From Minwuiaceae bacterium (GTDB lineage: Bacteria; Pseudomonadota; Alphaproteobacteria; Minwuiales; Minwuiaceae): a DNA stretch of 64,000 nucleotides. Shown here in pieces: positions 5,637-54,759 of this stretch; position 1 is the stretch's first letter, and each line of letters begins with the position of its first letter. Both the position numbers and the translations under genes were made by a program. The notes under the pieces were generated by a model. It was not told the DNA's origin. It made no database searches and was given only the letters and a program-made list of their open reading frames with translations. Location: the NCBI GenBank assembly GCA_028278525.1, contig JANQEE010000029.1:1-64000 (forward strand). Direction: 5' to 3'.

Positions 5637-5809
5637 CGCTCACCCTCTTTCGTCAACCTATGGCGGCTCTCACGCTGGCGATCGGTTGCGCTAGTATTCC
5701 CCGGGTCTGGGGCCGATTTGCGCCCCCGATCCGGATATTCAGTCCGGGCCGGACACCGCACAATGGTAGCAATGTCGTATCAGCCGGTTGAGTATAGGGA
5801 TCTCCCGCA

Positions 5810-6241: not shown

Positions 6242-6242
6242 T

Positions 6243-6638: not shown

Positions 6639-6791
6639 GGTTCCTCGCTGACGGGAGATGCATGGGACCTAGCGACACCGCCACTGCCTTGTCAATCGTC
6701 CGGCCAAATTTGTGACGAATGTCATAGAGACCGGCACTGATGTTTTGGTTATCTTCCGACCGGGCGTCAAGCGGATCAAAGGGGATTTAAT

Positions 6792-7808: not shown

Positions 7809-7822
7809 AGCCGGGAGGCGCC

Positions 7823-8557: not shown

Positions 8558-8822
8558 ATCACGCCTTTTGACCGGCGCCGGAAAAGCAACTAATGAGTGA
8601 TTTTCAGGCGCCGAGAATGACACCGCAGGGCTACGCGAATACTCGGCACTTCCCGATTATGGTGGCGAAACATTCCAAATTTGCGAGAAATGTTCAGTTC
8701 GAATTTACTGTTTTTCAAAAATCTGTGATGTTTTTTAGAATCAATATAATTCAAATAGACACTACCGGAGATAGCGAATACCGTCGGCGGCCCCCACAAC
8801 CTCAACAGGAACGGATGAGCCG

Positions 8823-10349
8823 ATGTTCGTCAGACAAATTTCCAGATTGTTTGTGGCAGGCACGCTGATTTCGCTATCAGGTCAGGTGGTTGCCGACACC
8901 CCGCCCACCCTGACGCAAGACAGCGGCGCGCCGGTCGGCGACAATCAGAACTCCAAGACCGCGGGCCCGTTCGGCGGTGTGCTGCTGGAAGACTTTCACC
9001 TGATCGAAAAGCTCGCGCGCTTCGACCGGGAGCGAATTCCTGAGCGTGTCGTGCATGCACGCGGGACCGGGGCGCACGGTGAGTTCGTGGCCAGCCGCGA
9101 CTTCTCCGAATTCACCAAGGCGTCGCTGTTCAAGCAAGGCAAGGCGACGCCGGTGTTCGTACGCTTCTCCACCGTCATCCATCCCAAGGGATCGCCGGAA
9201 GGATTGCGGGATCCGCGCGGCTTCGCCACCAAGTTCTACACGGACGAAGGCAACTGGGACCTGGTCGGCAACAACCTGCCGGTCTTCTTCATCCGCGACG
9301 CGATCAAGTTTCCGGACATGGTTCGGTCCCTGAAACCCTCCCCCGTCACCAACGTGCAGGACCCCAACCGCTTCTTCGACTTCTTTTCGCACATCCCGGA
9401 ATCGACGCACATGCTGACCCTGGTCTATTCGGACCTGGGCACGCCCGCTTCGCTGCGCGAGATGGACGGCCATGGCGTGCACGCCCTGAAACTGGTGGAC
9501 GCGGACGGCAATGTCGTGTTCGCCAAATTCAGGTGGAAAAGCCATCAGGGCGTCAGGACCCTGACGGCAGCCGAAGCGGCGGTGGCGGACTTCAACTACG
9601 CCACAAAGGATCTCTACCAGAACATCGCGGCCGGAAACTTTCCCAAATGGGATCTCCATGTCCAGATCCTCAGGCCCGAAGATATCGAGAGGCTGGACTA
9701 CAATCCGTTCGACGCGACCAAGGTCTGGCCGGGTGTCGAGGAGATCAAGCTCGGCACCATGACGCTGAACCGGGTGCCGGACAACTTCTTCCAGGCGACC
9801 GAACTATCGGCGTTCTCGCCGGGCGTGATGGTGCCGGGGGTCGAGGCGTCGCCGGACCGCCTGCTCCAGGGCCGGCTGTTTTCCTACGCCGATACGCAGC
9901 GCTACAGAATCGGCGCGAACTACCAGTCGCTGCCGATCAACGTGCCGAAAGTGTCGGTCAACAACAATAACCGCGACGGCACGCTGAGCTTCGTCGCGCA
10001 AACCGGCGAGGTGAACTACCAGCCGTCGCGCAAGACGAACGACAATGTCTTCGCCGACGACAATAGCAGGCGGCAAAGCCGCTACGCGCTGGAAGGCCTG
10101 ACCCAGCAATTGGCGATCAAGAAATCCCAGCCCTTCAAACAGGCTGGCGATGCCTACCGCGCCTTCACGCCGGAACAGCGGACCAACCTGATCGCGAATC
10201 TGGCCGGCGACCTGGGCCAGGTACGGGACCAGAAGACCAAGGAAATCATGGTCAGCCACTTCTACGCCGCGGACAAGGAGTTCGGCGAACGCCTTGCCGA
10301 GGCCGTGGATGTGAGTGTCGAGCGGATCAGGCAGGCGAGCCTGCAATAG
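8823..10349 (+). CDS. katB: Exported heme catalase (KatB-like)
   Basis: A 508-residue monofunctional heme catalase that dismutates hydrogen peroxide. The distal histidine is H78 (RVVHARGTGAHGEF), with the conserved distal asparagine in VGNNLPVFFIRDA. The proximal heme ligand is Y355 in RLFSYADTQRYR. Unlike cytosolic catalases it begins with a hydrophobic leader (VAGTLISLSGQVVA, cleavage near residue 24), which predicts a periplasmic enzyme. An exported ankyrin protein gene follows after 86 bases, the same arrangement as Pseudomonas katB-ankB. The upstream 265 bases (8558-8822) are notably AT-rich and presumably hold the promoter; I did not find a convincing OxyR site. Confidence 0.93.
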   Translation: MFVRQISRLFVAGTLISLSGQVVADTPPTLTQDSGAPVGDNQNSKTAGPFGGVLLEDFHLIEKLARFDRERIPERVVHARGTGAHGEFVASRDFSEFTKASLFKQGKATPVFVRFSTVIHPKGSPEGLRDPRGFATKFYTDEGNWDLVGNNLPVFFIRDAIKFPDMVRSLKPSPVTNVQDPNRFFDFFSHIPESTHMLTLVYSDLGTPASLREMDGHGVHALKLVDADGNVVFAKFRWKSHQGVRTLTAAEAAVADFNYATKDLYQNIAAGNFPKWDLHVQILRPEDIERLDYNPFDATKVWPGVEEIKLGTMTLNRVPDNFFQATELSAFSPGVMVPGVEASPDRLLQGRLFSYADTQRYRIGANYQSLPINVPKVSVNNNNRDGTLSFVAQTGEVNYQPSRKTNDNVFADDNSRRQSRYALEGLTQQLAIKKSQPFKQAGDAYRAFTPEQRTNLIANLAGDLGQVRDQKTKEIMVSHFYAADKEFGERLAEAVDVSVERIRQASLQ

Positions 10350-10364
10350 GAAGCCGCCGATTAG

Positions 10365-10401
10365 CCGGGTCCGGGGCCAAACGCTTCGGACCCGGTTTCT
10401 T
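10365..10401 (+). terminator. Terminator-like hairpin between katB and the ankyrin gene
   Basis: A perfect 9-bp stem (CCGGGTCCG at 10365-10373, CGGACCCGG at 10387-10395) with a 13-nt loop is followed by TTTCTT. It lies in the 86-base gap between catalase and ankyrin genes. Because the ankyrin gene has no other obvious promoter, it may act as a partial terminator that lowers ankyrin expression relative to catalase. Confidence 0.65.
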
Positions 10402-10435
10402 CCGGCAACACCTACTCCCGAAAGGCAGCGACACC

Positions 10436-11008
10436 ATGAACGTTCGTCAGGTCATGTTTTCCGCATTGTGCGCATTGGCAATCACAGCGCCCCTCCCCGC
10501 CGGCGCGGAGAACCAACTGCTCTCGCCGGCGCAGATCTCGGCGATCTACTTCGATGCGGCCCGCAGCGGCCGGTCAGACATCCTCGACGATCTTCTCAAG
10601 GCCGGCGCGGATATCGAGGTCCGCAACGAGGCCGGCTTCACGGCCTTTGTCCTGGCCGCCTACAACGGACGGATGCGGACGGTCGAGTTTCTGCTGCAAA
10701 AGGGCGCCGACCCCTGCGCCGCCGACAATCGGGGCAATACGGCCCAGATGGGCGTAGCCTTCAAGGGCGACGACCGTATGGCCGAGCGCCTGCTGCAGAT
10801 GGCGTGCGACGTGAACGCGACGAACGCCGCCGGTCAAACCGCTCTGATGATGGCGGCGTTGTTCGGCCGCGATAAGCAGGTTGACATGCTGCTGGCGAAG
10901 GGCGCCGACCGCTCGATCCGCGACGCGTCCGGGAATACCGCTCTCAGCCTGGCGCAGCAGCAGGGCAATGCGCAGATGGCCGCCCTGCTGCAGGCAACGT
11001 TCGACTAA
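10436..11008 (+). CDS. Periplasmic ankyrin-repeat protein (AnkB-like)
   Basis: A 190-residue protein with a signal peptide (hydrophobic core VMFSALCALAITAPL, cleavage after AGA near residue 23) followed by four to five ankyrin repeats. The repeats are visible as periodic A-x-L-L-x-x-GAD segments: LKAGADIEVRNEAG, LQKGADPCAADNRG, CDVNATNAAGQTALMMA, LAKGADRSIRDASGNTAL. In Pseudomonas aeruginosa the periplasmic AnkB supports full activity of the neighbouring KatB catalase. The location directly downstream of an exported catalase suggests the same role, perhaps protection or assembly of the enzyme. That function is inferred from synteny. Confidence 0.88.
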   Translation: MNVRQVMFSALCALAITAPLPAGAENQLLSPAQISAIYFDAARSGRSDILDDLLKAGADIEVRNEAGFTAFVLAAYNGRMRTVEFLLQKGADPCAADNRGNTAQMGVAFKGDDRMAERLLQMACDVNATNAAGQTALMMAALFGRDKQVDMLLAKGADRSIRDASGNTALSLAQQQGNAQMAALLQATFD

Positions 11009-11025
11009 CCTGCAGGCAGCCAGCC

Positions 11026-11658
11026 TCAACCGACCGCCGCCCGGAGGCGCGTGACTAGTTGGTCGGCGGTGACGACGCCGGAGGGCGATATGTTCACTCC
11101 TGCCGCGCGCAGCATGCGGGCGGTCCAGGTATTGCAAGTGTTGAACAGATGAAACGTGCCCCGCGCATGGTAGAAGTTGCTGTTCGGATAAAGGCCTCGC
11201 GAAACCGGCGTGGCGCGTCCGCCTTCCGGACGCTGAAAGTCGCCTGCGATGGCGGCAGTGAGGCGGCGGAACCCAGTTGCCGTGAGCGCGACAGACACTA
11301 CCTCGCGGTCCGCGCCCGCCGGCTGCGGCGCGTGGTCGAGCCCTGCCGCGTGCATCACTGCGGGCGTCGCGGTGAGAGCCGCGCCGAGTGTCATGCCGAC
11401 GGTCTTGTCCTCCGCGGGATAGTAGGTGCGGTCGCCCCAGCCGAATTCGAGAAACGCCGCATCCGGGAAGTCATCGGCTTCCGGCAGTAAGCCGGTGTCG
11501 GCAAGCGCCGCGCGTGGCATGACGACCGCTGTGTGCCAGCCGTTGCTGACGACATAGACGATGTGAGCGGGCGGGCCGCCGGTGTCCGGCGGCAACGGCG
11601 GCGTATCGGCACATGCGACAACGACCAGCAACGCCACAAAAGCGAACAACCGTCTCAT
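11026..11658 (-). CDS. DUF2459 (TIGR02117 family) lipoprotein
   Basis: A 210-residue exported protein. The leader MRRLFAFVALLVVVACADT ends in a lipobox-like VVAC, so it is probably a lipoprotein. The body has the DUF2459 hallmarks: IVYVVSNGWHTAVVMP near the start, FLEFGWGDRTYY, and the C-terminal FHLFNTCNTWTARMLRAAG with conserved N-T-C-N-x-W. The conserved His, Asp and Cys suggest a cysteine-peptidase-like (NlpC/P60-related) fold, but no activity is established. I used the ATG at 11658 because the open frame further upstream lacks homology and crosses a divergent gene. Confidence 0.82.
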   Translation of the reverse strand: MRRLFAFVALLVVVACADTPPLPPDTGGPPAHIVYVVSNGWHTAVVMPRAALADTGLLPEADDFPDAAFLEFGWGDRTYYPAEDKTVGMTLGAALTATPAVMHAAGLDHAPQPAGADREVVSVALTATGFRRLTAAIAGDFQRPEGGRATPVSRGLYPNSNFYHARGTFHLFNTCNTWTARMLRAAGVNISPSGVVTADQLVTRLRAAVG

Positions 11659-11775
11659 GGCGGCAATGTAGGGCTTCCACCGCCGGAAGCGAACCGCTTC
11701 GCGCTTGATTGACACGCGCAGCTTTCGTAAGACCACCGGTATCGCTCGGAACCGGGGCCGAGGGGGAGCAGTAGC

Positions 11776-12324
11776 GTGAAAGCGTCCGTCTATATCGCGA
11801 CCAGCCTTGACGGCTTTATCGCGCGCGAAAACGGCGCGCTCGACTGGCTGCCCGGCGCGGATGGCGGCGGCGGGAACGGTCCAGCAGAGAGCGAAGATTA
11901 CGGATACAGCGCCTTTATGGCGGCGGTCGACGCGATCGTCATGGGTCGGCATACGTACGAGGCTGTGTTGGGCTTTGGCGACTGGCCGTACGAGAAGCCG
12001 GTGGTGGTGCTGAGTTCGCGGCAAATGGACCTGCCCGCAATTCTGACGCAATCCGTCGAAGCGATGGCCGGCTCGCCGCAGGATGTGTTCGACCGTTTGG
12101 CGGAACGGGGGTTCGAGCACCTCTACATCGACGGCGGCGCGACGATACAGCGGTTTCTGCGCGCCAGACTGATCCGGCGCCTGATCGTCACCCGGGTGCC
12201 GGTCCTGCTCGGCAGCGGCATCCCGCTGTTCGGGCCACTGGATGGCGACATCCAACTCCGGCACGTCGAAACGAAGAGCTTTGCCAGCGGGATGGTGCAA
12301 AGCGTGTACGACGTTCCCGCATGA
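11776..12324 (+). CDS. RibD C-terminal/dihydrofolate reductase-like protein
   Basis: A 182-residue protein of the RibD_C family, whose fold is shared with dihydrofolate reductase. It begins KASVYIATSLDGFIAREN (typical S-x-D-G-x-I-A), has VMGRHTYEAVLGF in the middle and YIDGGATIQRFLRARLIRRL toward the end, the nucleotide-binding G-G region. It probably reduces a small molecule with NADPH; most stand-alone members are uncharacterised. Its stop overlaps the start of the flavin monooxygenase gene (ATGA), so the two are translationally coupled and may act in one pathway. Confidence 0.85.
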   Translation: MKASVYIATSLDGFIARENGALDWLPGADGGGGNGPAESEDYGYSAFMAAVDAIVMGRHTYEAVLGFGDWPYEKPVVVLSSRQMDLPAILTQSVEAMAGSPQDVFDRLAERGFEHLYIDGGATIQRFLRARLIRRLIVTRVPVLLGSGIPLFGPLDGDIQLRHVETKSFASGMVQSVYDVPA

Positions 12325-13439
12325 CAAGCGTCATCGTGGTCGGGGCCGGCGCGACCGGTCTGGCGACGGCGCAAACCCTGGAAACCACGGGCCTGCAAGT
12401 GCAGGTGCTGGAAAAGGAACCGCGCGTGGCCGAGGCCTGGCGCGGCCGTCATCCCCAGCTCCGCCTGAATACCCATCGCCGACTGTCGGGCCTGCCGGGC
12501 ATGAAGATGCCCCAAGCGTTCGGCGCCTTTCCGGCGCGGGACGACATGGTTCGCTATCTGGAAGATTATGCGGCGACGACCCCGCGAATTTCCTTCGACG
12601 CGCCAGTATCGCGAATCGACAAGGCGGAGACCGGATGGCGGGTCGAAACGCCTGGCGACGCGCTGCACGCCGACAACGTGGTGATCGCGACCGGGGCGGA
12701 CAGAGTTCCATACATGCCGGCCTGGCCCGGGATGGACGGATTCAGCGGCGAGGTTTTACACGCGGCCGACTTCGGCGATGCGGCGCGCTATCGCGGCCGG
12801 CGGGTTCTGATCGTCGGCGCCGGCAATTCAGGAACCGACCTGTTGAACCATCTGGCAACCGTCGATACGGGCGAGATCTGGGTTTCCGTCCGGCACGGAC
12901 CGGCGATGGCGCCGACACGGTTCCTCGGCTTTCCGACGCAACTGATATCGCCCTTTCTGGATGCGCTACCGCTAGCGGCGGCGGACCGGGTGCTGGACCT
13001 GACCGAATGGCTGGCGTTCGGCAATTTGCGAAAACACGGCCTACCGCGACATTGGCAAGGCGGCGCGACACGGCTGGCCGAAACCGGCACGGCGCCGGCT
13101 ATCGACAAAGGTTTCGTCGCCGCGCTGAAGGCCGGCAAGGTTACGGTGGTGCCGGAGATCGAGCAATTCGAGCCGACGGCGGTCCGACTGACCGACGGTC
13201 AACGCCTGGAACCGGATATCGTGGTGGCCGCGACGGGCTACCGGACCGGCCTTGCGCCGATGCTCGGCCATCTCGGCGTTTTGGACGAGCGCGAGGCGCC
13301 GGTTGTCCACGGCGACCAGCAGGATCCGCGCTGGCCCGGGCTCTGGTTCAACGGCATGCGCCCGCCGCTCAGCGGCACGCTCGGCGCGGTCGGAAAGACG
13401 GCAAAGCGGATCGCCGCAGCGATCATCGCGTCGACGTGA
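12321..13439 (+). CDS. Flavin-dependent monooxygenase (FMO/YUCCA-like NAD(P)-FAD oxidoreductase)
   Basis: A 372-residue two-dinucleotide-fold flavoprotein. The FAD-binding GxGxxG is at residues 8-13 (VVGAGATGLA) and the NADPH-binding GxGxSG is near 170 (VLIVGAGNSGTDL). The segment VVAATGYRTGLAPML is the C-terminal ATG motif seen in FMOs. The distribution of motifs fits FMO or Trk-like group B flavin monooxygenases that oxygenate nitrogen, sulfur or carbon centres. The start overlaps the RibD-like gene by four bases, so they are coupled. The substrate is unknown. Confidence 0.85.
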   Translation: MTSVIVVGAGATGLATAQTLETTGLQVQVLEKEPRVAEAWRGRHPQLRLNTHRRLSGLPGMKMPQAFGAFPARDDMVRYLEDYAATTPRISFDAPVSRIDKAETGWRVETPGDALHADNVVIATGADRVPYMPAWPGMDGFSGEVLHAADFGDAARYRGRRVLIVGAGNSGTDLLNHLATVDTGEIWVSVRHGPAMAPTRFLGFPTQLISPFLDALPLAAADRVLDLTEWLAFGNLRKHGLPRHWQGGATRLAETGTAPAIDKGFVAALKAGKVTVVPEIEQFEPTAVRLTDGQRLEPDIVVAATGYRTGLAPMLGHLGVLDEREAPVVHGDQQDPRWPGLWFNGMRPPLSGTLGAVGKTAKRIAAAIIAST

Positions 13440-32749: not shown

Positions 32750-33418
32750 TCAGCCTTTCGTAAATGGCTGGCCGTCGAAGCTTTCGCGAAAGGCGATCTC
32801 CTCGACCGCGTTGCGCCGGAGCTTGGTCAGCTGCTTGACCGGCTTGCCGAGCGGCACGACGGCGGAGACCGCGTGATCGGCAGGGATGCCGAGCAAGGCC
32901 TGGACCTTCGGCTCCTCCGCCACCGCCAATGTGGTGATGGTCCCGCCGAAACCGGCCTGGCGCGCGGCCAGCAGCACGTTCCAGACGAACGGGTAGATCG
33001 ACGCGCCGCTGATCACGCCGATGCGGTCGAGGTTCTGGTCCATCGAGGCCACCACCTTGAGGTCGACGACGAAGACCAGCACCACAGAGGCGTTGCGGTG
33101 GGTTTCGGTCAAGGCGGCCGGCGCAGGCGTCGCGGCGATCTGATCGTCCGTCACCTTGGTCGGCGTGACCGCGTTCCACGGGCTCTCGCCGGCCTGGATC
33201 TGGGCCGCATAGCGCTTGGCCGCCGGCTCACAGAGGTCGGCGAGCTTGTCGCGGGTCGCCTGGTCGCGGACCACGATAACGCGGTTGCCCTGACGGTTGC
33301 CGCCGCTGGGTGCGAAACGGGCAACCTCTAGGATCTCGTACAGCACGTCGTCGGGCAGCGGATCGCCGGTATAGTCTCGGGCCGCGAAAGTGGTGCGCAT
33401 CACGTCGTTGAGTTCCAT
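32750..33418 (-). CDS. Nitroreductase-family flavoprotein
   Basis: A 222-residue FMN-dependent nitroreductase. The N-terminus (ELNDVMRTTFAARDYTGDPLPDDVLYEILEVARFAPSGGNRQ) is the R-x-x-R/T-F and APSGGN FMN-binding signature, and GGTITTLAVAEEPKVQALLGIPADH is the C-terminal signature with the G-I-P turn. The start at 33418 was chosen because MELND is the usual N-terminus. Substrates in this family are nitroaromatics, quinones, enones or flavins; none is indicated here. It converges on the Lin0512 gene (6 bases). Confidence 0.87.
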   Translation of the reverse strand: MELNDVMRTTFAARDYTGDPLPDDVLYEILEVARFAPSGGNRQGNRVIVVRDQATRDKLADLCEPAAKRYAAQIQAGESPWNAVTPTKVTDDQIAATPAPAALTETHRNASVVLVFVVDLKVVASMDQNLDRIGVISGASIYPFVWNVLLAARQAGFGGTITTLAVAEEPKVQALLGIPADHAVSAVVPLGKPVKQLTKLRRNAVEEIAFRESFDGQPFTKG

Positions 33419-33601
33419 CGGTCCGCTCCTCCCATCGTTTCGTTGGACCAAAGCTTGCTGTGCCGGCCGGGCCGACGTCAAGCCGCCGATTTTTCTTCGC
33501 TGCCCCTCTTATTTCCGACGGGCCGACTCCGGTACAATCACAAAACGCAATGCCCGGGCAGCGTGTGAAAACGGCGTCGGCAGGCTTCGAGGGAGGGAGA
33601 G

Positions 33602-36706: not shown

Positions 36707-37858
36707 TCACCACTGGTTACCCATGGGGAACTTCAGCAGGCCGTAGGGCGGGGATTTCGCTCGCTCGACGATCAGTTCCTCGCCACTGAAGCTCTCCAGG
36801 AAGGCGACCAGGTCGGCTTTTTCGTCGTCGGTCAGGCCGAGCGGTTTCATCTTGTCGGTCTTGGTGCCGAACGGGTCTTCGCCGCCGCCTTCATCGTAGA
36901 AGTCGACCACCTCCTCAAGGGTGAAAAAGACGCCGTTGTGCATATAGGGCGCCGAGTAGAGCGTGTAGCGGAGCGGCGGCGTGCGGAACTTGCCGATGTC
37001 CGCCTTGTCCTTGGTGGCGCGGTACCGGCCGGGATCGCGGTCGAGGTGGATGTAGTCCTGTTCCTCGAAGCCCTTTGAGCGCATCCGCTCGCGCATGGCG
37101 ATCTGGCGCTGCGGGTCTTCCTCGAACGCCGGGTTGGTTGGAACGCCGAGATTGTAATGCTCCTGGTCGGTGGCTAGCGCCCCGTTGTGGCAGACGATGC
37201 AGTTGGCCTTGCCTTCGAACAGCGCCTTGCCACGCAACTGGGCGTCATTCAGCGCCGACTTGTCACCACGCATGTATTTGTCGAACGGCGCGTCGTCGGC
37301 GACGATCGTGCGCTCGTAGGCGGCAATGGCCGACAGCGCCCGGTCGTAGCTTGGGGCTTCGCCGTACACGCGGCGGAACAGATCCACGTAGACAGGCACC
37401 TGCTTCAGGCGCTCTTCCGCCAGGACCGGTTTCAGGTTACCGGCGAGCGCCCCGGTAATGGCTGAATGAGCCTGCTTTTCCAGCGTCGCGGCGGAGGACG
37501 TCCAGAACCAGGCATCGAGATAGGCCGAATTCACTATCGTCTGCGAATTGCGCCAATGGACCGTGCCGGGATAGCCGCGCGACAGGTCGCCGCCGTCGCC
37601 CCAGCCCTTCTTCGGGTCGTGGCAGTCGGCGCAGGAGATCGACGCATCGCCGGACAGGCGTGAATCGAAGAACAGCAGCCTGCCGAGTTCCACGCGATCT
37701 TCCGTCAGCGGCTGGTCGGCCGGCACCGGGACTGGAGGCAACGCCGCAAGCGGCGGCGGCGCATCGTCGGATGCGGCCTCACCTTTGTCGATCATCAACG
37801 AAAGCGCCAGAGACAGGACGGCAACGGAACAGGCTGCGAGCAGGGTCGATTTGCGCAT
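36707..37858 (-). CDS. Diheme cytochrome c peroxidase/MauG-like protein
   Basis: A 383-residue exported protein (leader MRKSTLLAACSVAVLSLALSL, cleavage near 29). It contains two heme c motifs: CADCH at residues 76-80 and CIVCH at 220-224, the spacing of bacterial di-heme cytochrome c peroxidases and MauG-type enzymes. Other family residues are FDSRLSGDASISC and the C-terminal SAPYMHNGVFFTLEEVVDFYD with distal methionine/histidine candidates. An AGGAGAT ribosome site precedes the start at 37858. It is the last gene of the minus-strand redox operon. In iodate-reductase clusters the diheme peroxidases are proposed to remove hydrogen peroxide; the same role here is only an analogy. Confidence 0.87.
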   Translation of the reverse strand: MRKSTLLAACSVAVLSLALSLMIDKGEAASDDAPPPLAALPPVPVPADQPLTEDRVELGRLLFFDSRLSGDASISCADCHDPKKGWGDGGDLSRGYPGTVHWRNSQTIVNSAYLDAWFWTSSAATLEKQAHSAITGALAGNLKPVLAEERLKQVPVYVDLFRRVYGEAPSYDRALSAIAAYERTIVADDAPFDKYMRGDKSALNDAQLRGKALFEGKANCIVCHNGALATDQEHYNLGVPTNPAFEEDPQRQIAMRERMRSKGFEEQDYIHLDRDPGRYRATKDKADIGKFRTPPLRYTLYSAPYMHNGVFFTLEEVVDFYDEGGGEDPFGTKTDKMKPLGLTDDEKADLVAFLESFSGEELIVERAKSPPYGLLKFPMGNQW

Positions 37859-37878
37859 TGCACGGATCTCCTTGCGCG

Positions 37879-38643
37879 TCAGACTTTGAATTGAACGGAA
37901 AATTCGCTGGTCTCGCCGGCCTTGACGGCGACGTCGCCGGCAGTTTCGCCGAACACCGGGTGCCAGGCCGTCAGTTCGTAACTGCCGGGCGGAATTCGAT
38001 CGATCGAAACCTCGCCCTTCGAATCCGCAACGCCGACATAAGGATGATCGGCGGTGTAGATCCAGGCGGACATCCAATTGTGGGCGTCGCAGTCGATCTC
38101 GATGACGTCGCCGCGCCGCATTTTGAGGACGTGTTTGTCGACCTGGCCGGCCTGCGGCTGGGCGATGTTGAACATCGTACGCCGCGCACGGCCGATCAGT
38201 TCGTAGGCGTGGATGTTATGCAGCAGCGGGTCTTCGTTAAGGATCGTCAATTCGGCGCCTTTACGGGCAACCTGAACGTAAGGCTCGAATTTACACCGGG
38301 CCTGGACGATCTTCGGCACGGTCCCTGGATCGGACCACGGCTTGCCTTGCGAGATATCCTTAAGCGCAACGACCGCGTCCGCGAGATAGCCGTCCGCCGT
38401 GACCCGAACCGGATCGGGCACGATAGCCCCCTCCCCGCAATGGCCGTGGTCCTTGCTGATCAGGATCTCTTCGGGCTTTGGCGGCGCACCGGAAAGCATG
38501 ACTTTGCCTTTCAACACGCCGCCGGCAATGTCCGGCTGTTCCGTATAGTCAGCGACCGCGAGGCGCGGCAGGGCGGCGACCCCTAACGCCGCCGCGCCGG
38601 TCGACAGCATGGTGCGGCGGGACAAATAGCGATTGATCGTCAT
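37879..38643 (-). CDS. Tat-exported cupredoxin-like protein
   Basis: A 254-residue periplasmic protein. The N-terminus (SRRTMLSTGAAALGVAALP) is a Tat-type signal. The C-terminal half has a plastocyanin-like type I copper set: HNIHAY (H142/H145), then C185, H188 and M191 in the region IEIDCDAHNWMSAW. The last ~60 residues form a small beta-rich domain (DRIPPGSYELTAWHPVFG) as in carboxypeptidase-regulatory-like domains. It would carry an electron or bind copper next to the cytochromes. It overlaps the cytochrome gene upstream by one base, so it is in the same operon. Confidence 0.8.
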   Translation of the reverse strand: MTINRYLSRRTMLSTGAAALGVAALPRLAVADYTEQPDIAGGVLKGKVMLSGAPPKPEEILISKDHGHCGEGAIVPDPVRVTADGYLADAVVALKDISQGKPWSDPGTVPKIVQARCKFEPYVQVARKGAELTILNEDPLLHNIHAYELIGRARRTMFNIAQPQAGQVDKHVLKMRRGDVIEIDCDAHNWMSAWIYTADHPYVGVADSKGEVSIDRIPPGSYELTAWHPVFGETAGDVAVKAGETSEFSVQFKV

Positions 38644-39410
38644 TACTCGGTATCTCCCGAAATCTTGTCGGTTGAGGTAGCGCCGAACGACAGCACGTAT
38701 TCGGTCAGCGCCCAGAGTTCGTCTGGGGTCGCCTTGGAGCCGTAGGCCGGCATCGGCGACCCATCGAGGCCGGTGAAGATGCGGGTGTACACTTCGTCCG
38801 GCGCGGCGCCGCCCTTGTAGCGGCCATCGGTGAAGTCGGTCGCCCAGATGCGCCGCTTCTGATCGTCCTTGAGGGTAAGCGAAGACGGGCCGTCGCCCAT
38901 ACCGTCCGCCCCATGACAGGAAGCGCATTGCAGTCGGTCGTAGACTTGCGCACCCAACGCCAGATCGGCGTGCGCGGGACGGGGCGGCACGGAAATGGGC
39001 TTGCCCGGATCCTCGATGAACGCGAAGTCCTTGACCACGGCAACCAGGGCCCAGCGGTCCCGCTCCGGCAACGAGGCGAAGCTCGGCATCATGGCACCCG
39101 CCGCCCCTTCGACCCCGCGGGTGATCGCCTCGAACAGATCCTGGTCGGTCGGATTCTCGCCGCTTGGCGTCGAGCGTAGTTTGAATACGCCGAGTTGAAG
39201 GTTGCGGGGACGCTGGCTCAGGATGTAGGCGCCGGGCCCGGCGCCGTCACCTTCGACGCCGTGGCAGGCGACACATTCGCGCCGGTAAATCTCCTTGCCG
39301 TGCTCCAGCAATGCGGGATCGGCACCCGGCTGCTGCGCATTTGCGCCGTCTACCGCCGACACGGTGGCCAGCCCGGCCGCGACGGCGAACAAGGCCTCGA
39401 TTTTTCTCAT
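38643..39410 (-). CDS. Periplasmic two-heme cytochrome c
   Basis: A 255-residue exported cytochrome. Signal peptide MRKIEALFAVAAGLATVSAV with cleavage near residue 25. Heme motifs: CVACH at 46-50 and CASCH at 162-166, each with a likely distal methionine downstream (GAMMPSF; GSPMPAYG). The layout is two class-I-type cytochrome domains in tandem. It lies directly behind the molybdoprotein gene, the position of cytochrome acceptors in several aio operons, so it probably takes electrons from the Rieske/molybdoprotein complex. Confidence 0.88.
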   Translation of the reverse strand: MRKIEALFAVAAGLATVSAVDGANAQQPGADPALLEHGKEIYRRECVACHGVEGDGAGPGAYILSQRPRNLQLGVFKLRSTPSGENPTDQDLFEAITRGVEGAAGAMMPSFASLPERDRWALVAVVKDFAFIEDPGKPISVPPRPAHADLALGAQVYDRLQCASCHGADGMGDGPSSLTLKDDQKRRIWATDFTDGRYKGGAAPDEVYTRIFTGLDGSPMPAYGSKATPDELWALTEYVLSFGATSTDKISGDTE

Positions 39411-39420
39411 CGCCGCCTCC

Positions 39421-42027
39421 TCAGCCGATCGTGCGCGGCACGAAGGACATAGCGCCGGTGACTTTCTTGAGCGGCGTTTCGCCGACCCGTGTCACCCGTC
39501 CCTTGCCGATCTTGTAGTTGTAGACACCGGTCACCGGGTCGGTGACGGCGGGCACAACCGTGTTCGAGTTCTGCCCCGGATAAAACGCGTAGGTGTAGCT
39601 GACCCCCGGCGCGACTTCGTCGGTGACGTAGGCGACGAGCGCCAGAACGCCGGTGGTCTTTTCGCCGAGCTGGTTGACCACGTCGTCGTTCTGCACATGC
39701 ACCAGGTCGCCGCTCTCGATGCCGCGCGGGCCGGCGTCGGCCGGATTGATGAACAGGAAGTTCGACGGATAGCGCTGCCGCACATAGGGCTTGCGCAGGT
39801 CGTCATACATCGTCTGCCAGATGTGGTTGATGCGGCCATTCAGCACCCAAAGCTCGTCCTGCTTCGGGTGGAAGCGGCTATAGATCTTGTCGACGAAGCG
39901 CCAGTCGCCGCGCATGAAGATCGCCTTGCCGCTGGCCGTCTTGAACTGTTTGACGATCTTGTTGTGCTCTTCGTCCGCCGGCACGGTTTCGTCATGCAGA
40001 CGGACGGTGCCGATCAGTTTTCCGTCCGCCAGCCGGGCGGGCAGCTGGATACCGGTGGTGGAGAGCGAGCGCAGGAGATCGTGCGCGCGCATACCCTTGG
40101 CCTCGGCCAGCTCGACCAGTTTCGAGTAGTCGTACTGGCCGCCCTTGGATCGGGCCGACGCCTCTTCGAAGATGTCGTTGCCGTCGTTCCAGTCGAAACC
40201 GTCGAAGCCCATCTTCCGGGCGATCTGGGCGACGATCCACCAGTCCGGCTTTGCCTCCCCCGGCGGATCGTAGAATTTCGAGTAGATGCGCAGACGCCGC
40301 TCGCCCTGGGCGCGGGTGAAGTCGACCTCGCCCCAGGTCGCCGCGGGTAGAATCAGGTCGACATATTCGGTCAGGTCGTTCTGGTACGTCTCCTGCTGGA
40401 TCAGCACCATGCCGCCCTGGTCCATGCGCCGCTTCAGTTCTGCGACGATGCTGTCGCGGCCGAAGCCGGTGACCTGGACCGGGTGGCCGCGGGTCAGCTT
40501 CTCAATCTTGTCGCGAAGCGACTGGCCGGCCGACATCGCGGTCACCCAACTGTGGCCGACGACGTAGGCGAGGCGAAGATTGCCTTCCATCGCCCACTTG
40601 TCGAAATTAAGCGGGATCTTCGCGCCGCCCGGATCGTCCGGCCTGGCGTCGTGGTAGGCGACCGGCGATTTCGACAGCGGGTAGCCCTTCGCTTTCATCA
40701 TCCCGCGCTGATGGCCGCCGGCGCGGCTGATCACGCGGCCCGGCCGGCCGCCGGCGCCGCAGGTAAGGCCGAGCGCGGACAACGACGCACTGTTGGGGAA
40801 ATTGAACGACCAGTAGTTGCCCTTCTCCAGCATGAACGAGGCCTTGGGCCGGAGCGAGCCGCGCGGCTTGGCCAGCATCTCGGCGGCGCGCACGATCTTG
40901 TTCGCCGGAACGCGCGTGGTCGCCGCGGCTTTCTCGATCGTGTAAGCGTCGTCCGCCAGCAGGAACGCCTTGTACTCGTCGAAGGTCATGCCGAAGCGGT
41001 GGCGGCGCCAGCTCTTCGCCTCCTTCGCGATGTCGTCGCGGGTCGCCGTCCGGCGTTCGATAAAGTCAGTGTCTTCCCAACCCCGTTCGACGATGTAGCG
41101 GGCGATGGCGTTGTTCAGGACGGAGTCGGTGCCGGGCCAGACCTGGAGGTGCAGGCCGCCCGTCCGTTCGGCATAGGCCGCCGTCGGGCTCTTGCGCGGA
41201 TTGACGAAGACGATCTTAGCGCCGCCCGGCGCCATCCACTCGGTGAACAAAATGGTCTGGTTTTCGTATGGATCGACGCCGGAGATGTAGACCACGTCGG
41301 CGTCCCGCCAATCCGTGTACGCGGCGGAGAAGCCGTCGACCCCGGCATCGTCGACACCGGTCGCGTCGTTGGACGCCGTCGGCTTGTCGTGCTCCGCGCC
41401 GGCCGGCGTGCCGATGGCGCCGTAGGCCAGCTTGGTGACGGCGTAGGTGTTCTCCCAGAACTGGTAGGAGTAGTACTTGCAGCCCCAGGCGGCCTCGCCC
41501 CACTTGTCGATTGCGTATGTCGACAGTTCGGCGGCGATGGCGGTGGCGTCGTCCCAGGAGATCGGATGCAGCATGTTGCGGATGCGGACCAGCGGCGTCT
41601 GCAGCCGCTCCGCCGTCGGGCGGCGCGGGTTGTACGGCTTCAGGCCCAACGTACCGCCGCGGACGCTGTGGTTGCCCTTGCGGTTCACCGCCGTCTCGCC
41701 GTCCGGCACGATCACCACATGATGCAGCTCGCCGTTGTGGCGCACCACGTTGTGCATGTTGGGGCTGACCCACTTGCCGCTGGCGGCGGAGACCGGAAAG
41801 TCGGCGTGGAAAGCGTTCGCGTCGGCCTTTGAGCCACCTTTGCGGTGATACGGCCAGCGATAGACCTTGTAGCCGCAGCCGACGATGCAGTACTCGCATG
41901 CGGTCGGCAGGACCTCCGCATCGGCGGGCGGGATCGGTACTTCGTCCACCGGCAAATCGTAGGTGCCGAGGTCGACGGACGGCGTGCGCGCGGCGAGAAA
42001 CGCGCGGCGATCGATTTCGTTGCTCAT
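39421..42027 (-). CDS. Arsenite oxidase/iodate reductase-family molybdopterin subunit (AioA/IdrA-like)
   Basis: An 868-residue DMSO-reductase-superfamily protein. The N-terminal cluster motif CEYCIVGC (C44, C47, C51) is followed about 70 residues later by Ser121 in GNHSVRGG, the serine-for-fourth-cysteine pattern of the AioA [3Fe-4S] site. The pocket residues known in Alcaligenes AioA (H195, E203, R419, H423) align by eye with H213, D221, R435 and H439 (SRAGGHQRG); the Glu-to-Asp change is notable. The N-terminus has no obvious Tat signal, so export probably depends on the Rieske partner. A ribosome site AGGGAG precedes the ATG at 42027. The order Rieske-then-large-subunit matches aioBA. The substrate could be arsenite or another oxyanion; iodate is suggested by the neighbours. 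Confidence 0.88.
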   Translation of the reverse strand: MSNEIDRRAFLAARTPSVDLGTYDLPVDEVPIPPADAEVLPTACEYCIVGCGYKVYRWPYHRKGGSKADANAFHADFPVSAASGKWVSPNMHNVVRHNGELHHVVIVPDGETAVNRKGNHSVRGGTLGLKPYNPRRPTAERLQTPLVRIRNMLHPISWDDATAIAAELSTYAIDKWGEAAWGCKYYSYQFWENTYAVTKLAYGAIGTPAGAEHDKPTASNDATGVDDAGVDGFSAAYTDWRDADVVYISGVDPYENQTILFTEWMAPGGAKIVFVNPRKSPTAAYAERTGGLHLQVWPGTDSVLNNAIARYIVERGWEDTDFIERRTATRDDIAKEAKSWRRHRFGMTFDEYKAFLLADDAYTIEKAAATTRVPANKIVRAAEMLAKPRGSLRPKASFMLEKGNYWSFNFPNSASLSALGLTCGAGGRPGRVISRAGGHQRGMMKAKGYPLSKSPVAYHDARPDDPGGAKIPLNFDKWAMEGNLRLAYVVGHSWVTAMSAGQSLRDKIEKLTRGHPVQVTGFGRDSIVAELKRRMDQGGMVLIQQETYQNDLTEYVDLILPAATWGEVDFTRAQGERRLRIYSKFYDPPGEAKPDWWIVAQIARKMGFDGFDWNDGNDIFEEASARSKGGQYDYSKLVELAEAKGMRAHDLLRSLSTTGIQLPARLADGKLIGTVRLHDETVPADEEHNKIVKQFKTASGKAIFMRGDWRFVDKIYSRFHPKQDELWVLNGRINHIWQTMYDDLRKPYVRQRYPSNFLFINPADAGPRGIESGDLVHVQNDDVVNQLGEKTTGVLALVAYVTDEVAPGVSYTYAFYPGQNSNTVVPAVTDPVTGVYNYKIGKGRVTRVGETPLKKVTGAMSFVPRTIG

Positions 42028-42047
42028 CGGTTTACTCCCTGATGCGG

Positions 42048-42644
42048 TCAGCCGCGCATGATGACCGGGCCGCCCGGCCGGCCCGGGGTAGCGCCGTCGG
42101 CGATGTCGCCATCGGCCAGATTGCTGCGATAGCCGTAGATCAGGCCGATCACGCCCACCGCGACGATGTCGTCGCCGTCCACGCGCAAGACGACTTGCGG
42201 CAGGTTCTGGGTGGCGCTGGCATGGACCGGGATGCCGCCCTTGCGGAGATCGAAGGTCGAGAAGTGAAACGGGCACGGGCCGACGGCTTTGACGTCGTGG
42301 CGATAGCGGCCGCGCAGGCTGCCGCCCATATGGGTGCAGAGTGCGCTGAAGGCGACGATATCGCCGTCGGGCCCGACGCCGCGCAAGGCTTCCGCCCCCA
42401 GCCTGACGAGGAAGTTCGGTTGCTGCTTCAGCGGGTAGGCGAAGGCCAACGGCTCGCCAACCTCGATCCGGCTGAGCGTGCCGATCTTCAGTTCGGGATA
42501 GACGCCGTCTTCGAGCCTCGCTTCGCCTTCCGCAGCCTCGACCACATCGCCCGGTGCGAACGATGCCGCCATAACGCCGCCGGACATGACGGTAATCGCC
42601 GAGCGACGATTCATACAGAAAGGTCTGTCCTTATCTTGATCCAT
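42048..42644 (-). CDS. Rieske subunit of the Aio/Idr-like enzyme
   Basis: A 198-residue exported Rieske protein. A twin-arginine leader (NRRSAITVMSGGVMAASFA) precedes the domain. The [2Fe-2S] ligands are C103-H105 (CTHMGG) and C124-H127 (CPFHFSTFD). The two cysteines that form a disulfide in Alcaligenes AioB are replaced by Gly and Phe, a variation reported for Rhizobium NT-26 arsenite oxidase. GLIYGYRSN near the end is the AioB C-terminal signature. The ATG at 42644 has GGGGAGG before it; the ATG at 42614 lacks a site. The protein should carry the large subunit through the Tat pathway and pass electrons to the cytochrome. Confidence 0.87.
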   Translation of the reverse strand: MDQDKDRPFCMNRRSAITVMSGGVMAASFAPGDVVEAAEGEARLEDGVYPELKIGTLSRIEVGEPLAFAYPLKQQPNFLVRLGAEALRGVGPDGDIVAFSALCTHMGGSLRGRYRHDVKAVGPCPFHFSTFDLRKGGIPVHASATQNLPQVVLRVDGDDIVAVGVIGLIYGYRSNLADGDIADGATPGRPGGPVIMRG

Positions 42645-42714
42645 GCCATGCCTCCCCAAAACTGTCTTCAGTCGTTTCGATTGAGCCAACCCGCAGGCCG
42701 GCGCCGTAGTCTCG

Positions 42715-43503
42715 TCAGCCCATGCTGTTGAGCAGAATTTGGGCGACCTGCTCGACGCGCCCGGATGGGCCGTCCCCGACCAGCCCAATGGCAAGGTCGC
42801 CCTGTCGCCAAACCACATTGGTGAAGCGGCCCTTGCGGTGGACGGAGACGTCGAGCCCCGCCTGATTCTCCGGCAGCGCGAGACCGTCGGCGGACATCAC
42901 GTACAGGGCCAGCGCGCCGTCCGTACCCTCGAAGCTCAGCGACGCGAGCCGGCGGCCGAACAACCAGCAAAGCCGGCCGCCGATCAACCGGTTGCCGCCG
43001 GGTTCGACCGGGAAGGCCGGCAATTGGAAATCCAGCTTGGAGCCGTACCAATCGACGGCGCCGGCGACTTCGCTTGCGGTGAAGTCGAGTACCCGTTCCG
43101 CAAATAGAAACGTTTCAAAGTCGCTAATCAGGGTCGAGACGATCTGATGCCGGCTCTCACGCCACGCCAAAAGCCTCGGCCCGACCGTGAAGACAACCGC
43201 ACTGGCGGCCAGTGCGCCGAACGCGGCGAAAGCGAAACCGCGGCGGCCAACGGAGAGCGGCGCGCGACTGGGCGGTGCCAGGCAGTTTTCCACCTGCGCC
43301 AGAACGCGTTGCCGCAAGTCTCTCGGCGCCACCTCCGCCGTCATCGTCTCGCGCAGCAGGCGGTCGAGCGTCTCCAGTTCGTCGACCGAAGCCGAGCACA
43401 CAGCGCACTCGGCAAGATGCCGGCGGATGCCGGCCGCGTCCTCCGCCGTGCATTCGCCGTCGACGAAGCTTTCCAAATCAAAACCGCTACACGTTTCGAC
43501 CAT
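42715..43503 (-). CDS. ZAS-type transmembrane anti-sigma factor
   Basis: A 262-residue protein with three parts. The N-terminal cytoplasmic domain (1-80) carries the zinc-binding H-x3-C-x2-C motif in RRHLAECAVCSAS (about residues 28-37), the anti-sigma (ZAS) signature. A single membrane helix lies at FAFAAFGALAASAVVFTVG (about 88-107). A ~150-residue periplasmic domain follows with no family I recognise. It is encoded nine bases behind the ECF sigma gene, so it most likely holds that sigma at the membrane until the periplasmic domain senses a signal. Confidence 0.85.
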   Translation of the reverse strand: MVETCSGFDLESFVDGECTAEDAAGIRRHLAECAVCSASVDELETLDRLLRETMTAEVAPRDLRQRVLAQVENCLAPPSRAPLSVGRRGFAFAAFGALAASAVVFTVGPRLLAWRESRHQIVSTLISDFETFLFAERVLDFTASEVAGAVDWYGSKLDFQLPAFPVEPGGNRLIGGRLCWLFGRRLASLSFEGTDGALALYVMSADGLALPENQAGLDVSVHRKGRFTNVVWRQGDLAIGLVGDGPSGRVEQVAQILLNSMG

Positions 43504-43512
43504 GACAGATGC

Positions 43513-44094
43513 TCATCCAAGCAGGCGCGAAAGCCGGGGTGTGCCTGCGCGCTCAACCGCCTTATCGCGGGATGAAATGACTTGGCGGAGATGCGCCCTG
43601 GCCCGGCTCAATCGTGACCGGACCGTGCCTACCGGCACCTGCAGGGCCTCCGCCGCTTCGGCATACGTGAAGCCTTCGACCAATACGAAAATCACCACCG
43701 CGCGTTGTTCGAACGGCAAACCGCGCATGCCCTCGTCGACCAATCGGCCGAGTGCCGCGCCGATGCAGAGCTGTTCCGGCGTGTTCACCGCGCGACAATC
43801 GTCCGGCCCGGCGGCGAAATCGGCTTCGTCGGTAGAGACGAGCCGAACCCGGGACTGCCAGCGCAGCCGGTCGATACAGACGTTCCTGAGAATACGGAAC
43901 AACCACGGTTTGATTGCGTCATCGGATTTCAGCTTTCGTAGGCCGTTACAGGCACGGGCGCAGCACTCCTGAACCGCATCTTCGGCATCCGACGCATTGC
44001 CCAGCAGCCGCAACGCCGCCCGATAAAGACCATCGAGTTGCTCGGCTACGACACGTTCGAATTCCCGGCCCCGTTCGTCATTGAAATCGTTCAT
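43513..44094 (-). CDS. ECF sigma factor heading the redox operon
   Basis: A 193-residue sigma-70 family ECF protein. Region 2 is visible as LYRAALRLLGNASDAEDAVQECCARA with the helix KPWLFRILRNVCIDRLRW, and region 4 as LPFEQRAVVIFVLVEGFTYAEAAEALQVPVGTVRSRLSRARAHL. It is followed by its anti-sigma gene and the Aio/Idr-like operon, all on the same strand, so it probably directs transcription of this cluster, including itself. The 281-base intergenic region upstream (44095-44375) should contain the promoter; I did not find a convincing ECF -35/-10 pair. Confidence 0.88.
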   Translation of the reverse strand: MNDFNDERGREFERVVAEQLDGLYRAALRLLGNASDAEDAVQECCARACNGLRKLKSDDAIKPWLFRILRNVCIDRLRWQSRVRLVSTDEADFAAGPDDCRAVNTPEQLCIGAALGRLVDEGMRGLPFEQRAVVIFVLVEGFTYAEAAEALQVPVGTVRSRLSRARAHLRQVISSRDKAVERAGTPRLSRLLG

Positions 44095-44375
44095 GCCAAC
44101 AGAACTTCAGTTCCGATTCTGCGCCGCGGATCCCGCTGGTGAATGGGAAGCCATCGCCCAAAAGCGCCGCATTCGCCTGCCCTTACCCAAACAAGACGAT
44201 GAGGGCGCGGGATCGTTCCAGAAAATCACGATTATTTGAGTGCGGCCGGTAACCCGTAATCAATTTTTACGGGTGAAGCATGCGGGAAGCACGCGCTCGA
44301 CACCCGAGCATTGCTGCCGTAGCGTGACTTAGTCGGGTCCGGGGGAATTGATTCACCATCCGCAAGACATAAGAG

Positions 44376-52846: not shown

Positions 52847-53383
52847 CTATTGCAGCGGGATCGCAGCGAGAATCGTTTCCGCCGCGTCGGTCTGTTCCCC
52901 GTTTTCGTCGACCAGCGGCAGCGCCGCGACATCGGGCACAGGCCCGTCCGCAACCGCCGGCCGACCCGCCTCCTCCCCGGCTATCTCGCGGAACGGCGAC
53001 GGCATCAGCAATCCGACGATGAATGCCAGCAGCAAGGCCGTGGCGAAAGCGGCCGGGCGCAAATCCGGCTCACCCCATATCCAACGCCAGAACGGCGCCG
53101 GCGGCGCACCGCTTTCGGCGGCGGGCACGACATCCATAAGCCGTTGCCGCAGCGCGCCGGAGGGCGCCGGCGGTTGCAGGTCGCCCAGGGCAATGTCGAG
53201 GTCCGCGGCTTCGTCCCGCAGGCGGCGCGCCTCTTCCGAGCCGGCGAGCAGCGCCAGCGCGGCTGCTTTCTCAGACTCCGGCCAACGGTCGGAATGGGCG
53301 CCATAGGCATCCAGGATCGTGGCCATACGGTCCAGCGACATCGCCGTACGACCGGATGCCAATTGTCGATTATCTTCAACCAT
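52847..53383 (-). CDS. Putative anti-sigma factor (membrane-bound)
   Basis: A 178-residue protein with an acidic, helical N-terminal cytoplasmic part (DRMATILDAYGAHSDRWPESEKAAALALLAGSEEARRLRDEAADLD), one membrane helix (FATALLLAFIVGLLMPSPF, about 110-130) and a short periplasmic tail. It lacks the H-x3-C-x2-C zinc motif. It directly follows the ECF sigma gene with a one-base overlap, the normal place for its anti-sigma factor. The assignment rests on position and topology, since the sequence matches no family I can name. Confidence 0.65.
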   Translation of the reverse strand: MVEDNRQLASGRTAMSLDRMATILDAYGAHSDRWPESEKAAALALLAGSEEARRLRDEAADLDIALGDLQPPAPSGALRQRLMDVVPAAESGAPPAPFWRWIWGEPDLRPAAFATALLLAFIVGLLMPSPFREIAGEEAGRPAVADGPVPDVAALPLVDENGEQTDAAETILAAIPLQ

Positions 53384-54120
53384 TACGGTTCTCCCAGCAG
53401 ATCCGAGGCCCGCGCTCCAAGCTGCTGCTTAAGGCTACGCCGCCCGCGGGCAAGCAATGACTCGACCGCTTCAACACTCGCCCCCAATAAAGCTGCCGCT
53501 TCGCCGTTGCTGAAGCCCTGGTAGTAAACCAGGACGACGGCGGCGCGCTGACGGTCCGGCAAGGCAACCAGGGCCGCATGAACCAAGCGCCGCCGGTCGA
53601 TGCGCGCATCGGACGACGGCGCGCCGCCGGCCATGTCGCCGACCTCGCCTAAGGTTTCGAGCGAGACTGCGCGCCGGGCGCGCCGCCTGTCGATACAGAG
53701 ATTGACGGCGACGCGATGCAGCCAGGTGCGCAAAGCGGCCTGGCCGGGTTGCCAGCCATCGGCCTTGGCCATCAGCCGCACGAAGGTCTCCTGCGCCACG
53801 TCCTCCGCCTCGGCCCGGTCGCCCAGCATGTACCAGGCAGTGCCGTGGACCGCCGCGAGGTGTCGCTCGACCAGAGAGGTCCAGGCACGCCTGTCGCCGC
53901 CGGCAACCTGCCGGACCAAATCGTCGTCGTCGGCAGCGTTCGGTGCAGGCGATGCCGGGCGCGCGGCCGGGGCCCGGCGCCGGCCAATATCGGCGCGTTC
54001 GACGACAGGCCGTGGAGCCGCCGGAGGCACGCGGCGCGCCGCCGGGTCAGCGGTGCTTGCCGCGCCAGCGGCGCATGGGGATTTCGTTCGTATCGAGTTG
54101 CCCATCGCTATTCGCATCAT
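53383..54120 (-). CDS. ECF sigma factor following an EF-hand gene
   Basis: A sigma-70 family ECF protein of up to 245 residues. Region 2 is visible in WTSLVERHLAAVHGTAWYMLGDRAEAEDVAQETFVRLM, and region 4 in LPDRQRAAVVLVYYQGFSNGEAAALLGASVEAVESLLARGRRSL. The open frame begins at 54120 with about 25 codons that overlap the upstream EF-hand gene and have no sigma homology. A GTG at 54030 would remove that overlap, but neither start has a clear ribosome site, so the start is uncertain. It is followed by a putative anti-sigma gene. Confidence 0.82.
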   Translation of the reverse strand: MMRIAMGNSIRTKSPCAAGAASTADPAARRVPPAAPRPVVERADIGRRRAPAARPASPAPNAADDDDLVRQVAGGDRRAWTSLVERHLAAVHGTAWYMLGDRAEAEDVAQETFVRLMAKADGWQPGQAALRTWLHRVAVNLCIDRRRARRAVSLETLGEVGDMAGGAPSSDARIDRRRLVHAALVALPDRQRAAVVLVYYQGFSNGEAAALLGASVEAVESLLARGRRSLKQQLGARASDLLGEP

Positions 54121-54496
54121 AACGCGAGAACCAGCGTTCCGACGGCTTGGCGATCTCCTCGGCCGATAGACTCCGGTCGCCGTCGGCGTCCATCAAATCG
54201 AACAGGGTGGTGGTGCCAAGCCTTTGGAACAGACCGCCGCGACGGCGGAACTCATCCGGCGACAGCGTGCCGTTGCCGTCCAGGTCGGACGCGCCGATCA
54301 GCCGCCCCTGCTCCGCCGCGATCTCGGCCAGACTGACCTTGCCGTCGCCGTCGGTATCCAACAGCCGGATCATGCGGCTTTCGCCCTTAGAGCCACGATC
54401 GGCCGGCGGGCCGCCTTGCGCCATGGCAGAGGACGGCACGGCAAAGGCAACCAAGGTGGCAGCGGCAACCAGTTTGGCAGGTCCGAGTAGAGGCAT
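54047..54496 (-). CDS. Exported four-EF-hand protein
   Basis: A 149-residue secreted protein. The signal peptide is LGPAKLVAAATLVAFAVPSSA, cleaved before QGG. Four EF-hand loops follow: DTDGDGKVSLAE, DLDGNGTLSPDE, DADGDRSLSAEE and DANSDGQLDTNE, each with the D-x-D/N-x-D/S-G-x pattern for calcium. AGGAG precedes the ATG at 54496. Its gene lies in front of the ECF sigma and putative anti-sigma genes on the same strand, so it may be the target or sensor arm of a calcium- or envelope-linked sigma circuit. That link is inferred from order only. Confidence 0.85.
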   Translation of the reverse strand: MPLLGPAKLVAAATLVAFAVPSSAMAQGGPPADRGSKGESRMIRLLDTDGDGKVSLAEIAAEQGRLIGASDLDGNGTLSPDEFRRRGGLFQRLGTTTLFDLMDADGDRSLSAEEIAKPSERWFSRYDANSDGQLDTNEIPMRRWRGKHR

Positions 54497-54759
54497 ATCG
54501 ATACTCCTTAAAGAAGGTTTTCGCGTCGAACGCGACGCCACTACCTCCTTACACGGAGAAGCCCGGCCGATTCCGTCGCCGGCGGCGAAAAAAAAGCCGG
54601 GCGAAAGGCATCACCATTGCAAGTTGAAAAATTATCTTTCCGTATGCCGTTAGGCTGAAAAATTTTAGAGAGCATTTACCTTATGGTTGTATGAAGCGGA
54701 CGATTATTCGAATGAAATGGGTGCCCCTGGCCCTATGAGAGCTTTGAAAGGGTTGATTC

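Follow-up and report, generated by a model that had tools for sequence, protein, structure and literature searches.

An Idr-like molybdoenzyme operon with a linked ECF sigma/anti-sigma pair in a Minwuiaceae bacterium and a few other alphaproteobacteria

The window analysed here is a 64,000-nucleotide stretch of a Minwuiaceae bacterium (contig JANQEE010000029.1, positions 1 to 64,000). Its minus strand carries, from 44094 to 36707, seven co-directional genes for an extracytoplasmic function (ECF) sigma factor, an anti-sigma factor, a Rieske subunit, a molybdopterin catalytic subunit, a diheme cytochrome c, a cupredoxin and a diheme peroxidase. Judged by its sequence, the catalytic subunit is closer kin to iodate reductase (Idr) than to arsenite oxidase (Aio), and the operon as a whole is a variant of the Aio/Idr kind that lies nearer to Idr and falls outside strict membership of both. 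We give slightly better than even chances to the reading that it encodes a periplasmic system for oxyanion reduction, Idr-like and controlled by an ECF sigma/anti-sigma switch of its own, with iodate or a related oxyanion as the probable substrate. An earlier note on this DNA had proposed the seven genes, their positions and their identities. All seven were found where it had placed them, and the assignments were supported by Pfam and NCBIfam matches, or, for the cupredoxin, by alignment, profile and model:

44192..44219, minus strand: candidate promoter of ECF type, GGAAC-N16-CGTC(TTG), lying 98-125 bp before the start of the sigma gene
43513..44094, minus strand: ECF sigma factor, 193 aa (Pfam Sigma70_r2 6.7e-16, Sigma70_r4_2 7.4e-16)
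42715..43503, minus strand: membrane anti-sigma factor, 262 aa (Pfam zf-HC2 2.8e-6)
42048..42644, minus strand: Rieske [2Fe-2S] subunit, 198 aa (TIGR02694 123.7 bits, cut-off 95.65)
39421..42027, minus strand: AioA/IdrA-family molybdopterin catalytic subunit, 868 aa (Pfam Rieske_3, Molybdopterin, Molydop_binding)
38643..39410, minus strand: diheme c-type cytochrome, predicted periplasmic, 255 aa, two CXXCH (Pfam Cytochrome_CBB3/Cytochrom_C, two domains)
37879..38643, minus strand: cupredoxin with C-terminal CarboxypepD_reg/fn3-like domain, 254 aa
36707..37858, minus strand: diheme MauG/CCP (cytochrome c peroxidase) peroxidase, IdrP1 lineage, 383 aa, two CXXCH (CCP_MauG 3.3e-44)

In the tree of molybdoproteins, Aio was represented by the AioA proteins of NT-26, Sinorhizobium M14, Nitrobacter and Thermus. 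The IdrA clade was defined by idrP2P1BA synteny, reported to be characteristic of Idr (PMC10989891, PMC8692401), rather than by the IdrA proteins of SCT, IR-12 and DN11 themselves. The window molybdoprotein belongs to a clade of its own (support 100/100), the IdrA clade excludes it (support 99/100), and AioA is remote. Nesting of the window clade inside the characterised AioA was rejected by the approximately unbiased (AU) test (p = 9.8e-7 and 2.0e-7), as was its grouping with two IdrA subsets (p = 1.0e-5 and 2.1e-8). Thus, the protein lies inside neither AioA, which the earlier note had said would, together with standard aio neighbours in close relatives, make this a known system, nor IdrA, which it had said would do the same; its proposal of a third arrangement holds. 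The branching order among the window clade, IdrA and the Rieske-molybdoprotein pairs of Chloroflexota and Actinomycetota has support 80/84 (AU p = 0.49 and 0.31 for the alternatives), and the tree does not discriminate between placing the window clade as sister to IdrA, as sister to the Chloroflexota/Actinomycetota group, or as basal. These pairs are the closest outgroup (53-54% identity for the two Chloroflexi measured), share with the window clade an Asp at position 203 and a place near the base of the Idr side, and are probably related to the Dehalococcoidia homologue used as an outgroup by Reyes-Umana et al. (PMC8692401). They differ in having the Rieske and molybdoprotein genes only; on their contigs, some of which are short, neither a sigma pair nor a gene for a peroxidase, cytochrome or cupredoxin was seen next to them. 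Within the IdrA clade, Rieske-molybdoprotein pairs of Thiomargarita, Sulfurimonas and Helicobacteraceae (L023, L036, L044), some also on short contigs, were seen without linked diheme peroxidases; such peroxidases are said to be diagnostic of Idr.

Kinship to Idr rather than Aio is argued by the residues that discriminate the two catalytic subunits, by the spacing of the Rieske ligands and by the lineage of the peroxidase. At 25 columns separating AioA from IdrA, the window clade sides with Idr in 17 and with Aio in 4, and differs in the remaining 4. The active-site loop HDKPTASNDATGVDD of the window protein resembles HDKCSATNDATGLDD from an Azonexus idrP2P1BA operon. The Rieske spacing is X18 in the window clade (CXHX18CX2H), compared with X17-21 in Idr and those relatives that were inspected, and X13-15 in AioB; the window subunit lacks the AioB-type motif (CXHX15CX2H; X13 in Thermus) and carries that of IdrB, reported as CXHX18CX2H in DN11 (PMC10149662). 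A Rieske tree places the window genes as a separate clade on the Idr side. Similarly, in a peroxidase tree that contained both IdrP1 and IdrP2, the window proteins form a clade of their own that groups with the IdrP1s, with a Shimodaira-Hasegawa-like approximate likelihood ratio (SH-aLRT) support of 100.

The operon shares with Idr (IdrABP1P2 of Pseudomonas sp. SCT, Denitromonas IR-12 and Azoarcus DN11) a molybdoprotein-Rieske pair with IdrB-type spacing, an IdrP1-lineage diheme peroxidase, the active-site motif HD...RXGGHQ, and a cupredoxin and a cytochrome with homologues inside Idr islands. It differs from Idr in its molybdoprotein, which lies apart from the IdrA clade (46-51% identical to those members measured), in the residues D203 and T199, in its ECF/anti-sigma genes where Idr has sigma-54 and a sensor kinase, and in its layout, the order being B-A-cytochrome c-cupredoxin-P1 rather than P2-P1-B-A; thus the conserved idrA/idrB/idrP1/idrP2 synteny is not seen, A, B and P1 being present in a different order and P2 missing. 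The likeness to AioBA (NT-26, Sinorhizobium M14, Alcaligenes faecalis, Thermus HB8) extends to the fold family, the 3Fe-4S and Rieske cofactor motifs, the B-A gene order and a cytochrome downstream, as in NT-26. However, identity to AioA is only ∼32%, the Rieske spacing is X18 and not X15, HNRPAYNSE is absent, no AioXSR was seen nearby, and there is a peroxidase.

The earlier note had counted an extra copper protein among the partners. The copper assignment is supported: the type-1 ligand set (H142, C185, H188, M191) is complete and invariant in an alignment of 35 sequences, the AlphaFold2 model (mean predicted local distance difference test, pLDDT, 89.9) gives Foldseek matches to blue-copper proteins, and the profile matches are amicyanin and pseudoazurin. 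A type-1 blue-copper ligand set is therefore present in a predicted cupredoxin fold, and copper binding is predicted. The protein is not unique, however, since many Idr islands encode a homologue some 2.5 kb downstream of idrA. The cytochrome shares ∼40% identity with the N-terminal diheme portion of larger, 520-780-aa proteins; several of these, among them one in L172, belong to Idr islands and carry an ethylbenzene-dehydrogenase-type domain at the other end. Because homologues of both proteins occur in Idr islands, the window operon resembles a condensed form of such an island and not an Aio operon to which genes were added. The alphaproteobacterial island in L172 (7291-16933) also contains a HEAT-repeat protein, a membrane protein resembling cytochrome bd subunit I, several cytochromes c and a fusion of a cytochrome with an ethylbenzene-dehydrogenase domain, a combination that suggests a dedicated electron chain there.

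Carriers of the operon were sought by a scan of one genome per species and by whole-genome searches. Four further loci were found, with catalytic subunits 74% (L011, MAG.172), 73% (L012, Pelagibius sp. Alg239-R121), 73% (L167, in the Pelagibius relative G395) and 67% (L013) identical to that of the window. In the gene-order survey that the earlier note had proposed, the complete seven-gene order recurs in three of them (L012/L137, L013/L138 and L167), which argues that it is not due to chance. L013 has two sigma/anti-sigma pairs, and L011 has the five structural genes with no linked pair. Since L012 and L167 are near-identical, the five loci represent about four separate lineages. The carriers are alphaproteobacteria, mostly marine, and the operon is rare; in a 385-genome sample of the window's class, the window type was present only in its own genome, compared with 12 genomes (this one included) for the Idr type and ∼9 for the Aio type. 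We found no description of this gene order in the open literature, subscription papers and preprints lying outside the search. A canonical Idr-type gene is additionally present in three of the five carriers (the window's own genome, MAG.172 and G395), in idrP2P1BA order where this could be read, and G395 also has an Aio-type gene, so that all three paralogues occur in one genome. No second Aio/Idr copy was found in Pelagibius sp. Alg239-R121. In the window's own genome, the canonical idrP2-P1-B-A genes (L091, G000:C8:3000-22000, at 5516-13140) are followed by a HEAT-repeat protein, as in L172. A search of this genome for chlorite dismutase, part of one model of iodate respiration, found none.

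The proposal of a dedicated sigma factor has fared well, the adjacent ECF sigma and zinc-motif anti-sigma genes recurring as a pair, with positional homologues of the sigma gene in L012, L013 and L167, and an ECF-like promoter lying upstream. In all five loci, GAAC-N16-CGT(C/T) precedes the first gene of the operon. It stands before the sigma gene in L012, L013, L167 and the window, and before the Rieske gene in L011 and L013. For each region, a match has a 0.4-2% probability of arising by chance, a figure to be read with the caution that the pattern was refined after viewing the loci and is not a formal test. The conservation of such a motif before the operon lends support to a putative autoregulation by its own sigma factor, as the earlier note had supposed. 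The regions preceding idrP2 in G395, L032 and the window's own genome do not contain it. A match does occur in one Idr island, L172, and a pattern search of the window's own genome for further copies gave no excess over a reversed control. The Azonexus idr locus adjoins a sigma-54 activator and a sensor kinase, which matches the setting of the idr locus in the iodate-respiring Azoarcus DN11 (PMC10149662). In MAG.172, the best anti-sigma homologue is on another contig (L180, G060:C470) than L011; it is downstream of a similar GAAC-N16-CGTT motif and has a different gene set as neighbours, a cytochrome c gene and one other being among them. ECF control of this type may thus extend to other periplasmic oxidoreductases.

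Gene content, conserved order, the Idr-side kinship of three subunits, the copper and heme ligand sets and the promoter-like motif can all be read in the sequences. Ancestry, anatomy and conservation are thus observed, while the functions proposed below, including autoregulation, signal, electron route, direction of catalysis and substrate, are deductions. In the mechanism we favour, an envelope signal, either the oxyanion or a reactive product, would inactivate the membrane zinc-motif anti-sigma factor, and the released sigma factor would transcribe its own operon from the GGAAC-N16-CGTC promoter. The Mo/3Fe-4S subunit would be exported with its Rieske partner by the twin-arginine translocation (Tat) system. 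It would then reduce its substrate, for which iodate or another halogen-type oxyanion is the likeliest candidate, on electrons supplied by the diheme cytochrome c, the blue-copper protein or both. The IdrP1-type diheme peroxidase, drawing on the same donors, would clear peroxide, or some similar oxidant, formed as the enzyme turns over.

Several points weigh against this reading. Since the AU test rejected neither alternative branching order among the window clade, IdrA and the Chloroflexota/Actinomycetota pairs that lack a peroxidase, an IdrA-type function is not readable off the tree. In A. faecalis AioA numbering, the window clade has Asp at residue 203, where most proteobacterial IdrA proteins have Ser, and Thr at residue 199. 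Asp at 203 occurs in deep branches of IdrA too, and on the IdrA side in members of Methylomirabilota, Nitrospinota and Azonexus. The operon has no IdrP2 partner, and a second iodate reductase is redundant in the three of five genomes that already have canonical idr.

Coexistence with Idr, and in G395 also with Aio, speaks against a role that only duplicates theirs on arsenite or iodate, and makes a distinct substrate or a distinct condition likely. We entertain, as less likely than not, the idea of a third functional branch of the Aio/Idr family, neither arsenite oxidase nor iodate reductase, that would act on another oxyanion, perhaps of a halogen or metalloid, under a dedicated ECF switch and alongside Idr and even Aio. 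The proposal of a reductase (or oxidase) for a third substrate, neither iodate nor arsenite, diverged from the common Aio/Idr stock, is in our judgement doubtful. It is favoured by the separate clade in the trees, by the non-redundant roles that the additional paralogues imply, by twelve clade-invariant positions that deviate from near-invariant IdrA residues, and by a regulator type unlike the sigma-54/two-component type of idr. However, the peroxidase, the Rieske protein and the active-site loop are all Idr-type, and the same activity might simply be switched on by ECF control in other circumstances.

We judge it unlikely that the operon encodes an oxidase of arsenite (or antimonite) with atypical partners, passing electrons from As(III) via the Rieske subunit to the cytochrome c and the blue-copper protein. 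Cytochromes and cupredoxins are the classical Aio electron acceptors, and both are present. The NCBIfam arsenite-oxidase equivalog models also score above their cut-offs: TIGR02694 for the Rieske subunit, and TIGR02693 for the molybdoprotein (453.8 bits, cut-off 359); however, the same NCBIfam-derived name falls on a protein of a canonical idrP2P1BA operon and so does not discriminate. At the arsenite-contact positions of A. faecalis AioA (H195, E203, R419 and H423), the window clade has H, D, R and H, so the charge at 203 is conserved although the AioA residue set itself is not. Against arsenite are the rejected grouping inside AioA (AU p ∼1e-6), the absence of the HNRPAYNSE motif, the IdrB-type Rieske spacing, the IdrP1-type peroxidase, the lack of AioXSR or ars genes seen nearby and the separate Aio-type gene of G395. 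As the earlier note had reported, no arsenic genes were found in the window, here among the genes scanned (∼28-59 kb and 61-63 kb). It had named arsenite, iodate or something else as the possible substrate; the list survives, with arsenite now less likely than an Idr-type oxyanion, Aio and Idr not being equidistant.

A stress or maturation system, with an oxidant-responsive ECF pair, the peroxidase and cupredoxin as main components (MauG/MbnH-like modification or peroxide removal) and the molybdoenzyme as an auxiliary, is very improbable: zinc anti-sigma (ZAS) factors often sense oxidants, the cupredoxin and diheme enzyme genes are adjacent and the best NCBIfam match of the peroxidase is an MbnH-type family, but that match is below cut-off (220.6 against 362.85), the PDB matches favour CCPs (2.7e-42) over MauG (1.7e-18), and the peroxidase belongs to the IdrP1 lineage, companion of IdrAB. 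An MbnH/MbnP-type maturation role was ranked low on the grounds of the NCBIfam and PDB matches.

Environmental surveys use IdrA and AioA as markers, the former for iodate reduction and the latter for arsenite oxidation. Since the window clade passes the cut-off of the NCBI 'arsenate reductase (azurin)' models although it lies outside both clades, its members may be miscounted as arsenite oxidases. The clade branches close to where the two functions part, its peroxidase set is the simpler one of P1 only, and it coexists with idr (once with aio as well); thus the origin of iodate reductase and the separate roles of IdrP1 and IdrP2 become directly testable in the Pelagibius strain.

Within the operon, the intergenic gaps from sigma factor to peroxidase are 9, 70, 20, 10, -1 and 20 bp. 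The most plausible start of the Rieske gene is the ATG at 42644, and that of the cupredoxin gene is at 38643, where it overlaps the cytochrome stop. The Rieske N-terminus, RRSAIT, is a Tat-like RR motif as judged by eye, and the peroxidase has an N-terminal hydrophobic signal. The 3Fe-4S motif of the molybdoprotein, CX2CX3CX69S, is shorter by one residue than the CX70S reported for IdrA. The anti-sigma factor has a ZAS-type zinc motif (HX3CX2C; H29-X3-C33-X2-C36), a single hydrophobic segment at residues ∼89-108 (hydropathy) and a C-terminal domain with a C179 that is invariant in the alignment; its AlphaFold model, built from five sequences, was of poor quality (pLDDT 52) and was set aside.

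A nitroreductase-family gene (PF00881) is directly upstream of the sigma gene in L012 (6522-7142), L167 (5493-6098) and L013 (2158-2778), in the last case between the two sigma pairs; none is directly beside the window operon, and another such gene is at 32750-33481 of the window. MAG.172 has a third, deep AioA-like pair (L135, G060:C141, 1917-4982), 37% identical to that of the window and on the AioA side of the tree, with an aquaporin-type channel and a CobW-type GTPase as neighbours, identified by eye. A second ECF sigma gene of the window (53383-54120) is accompanied by genes for an EF-hand protein and an uncharacterised small protein (region 52847-54541).

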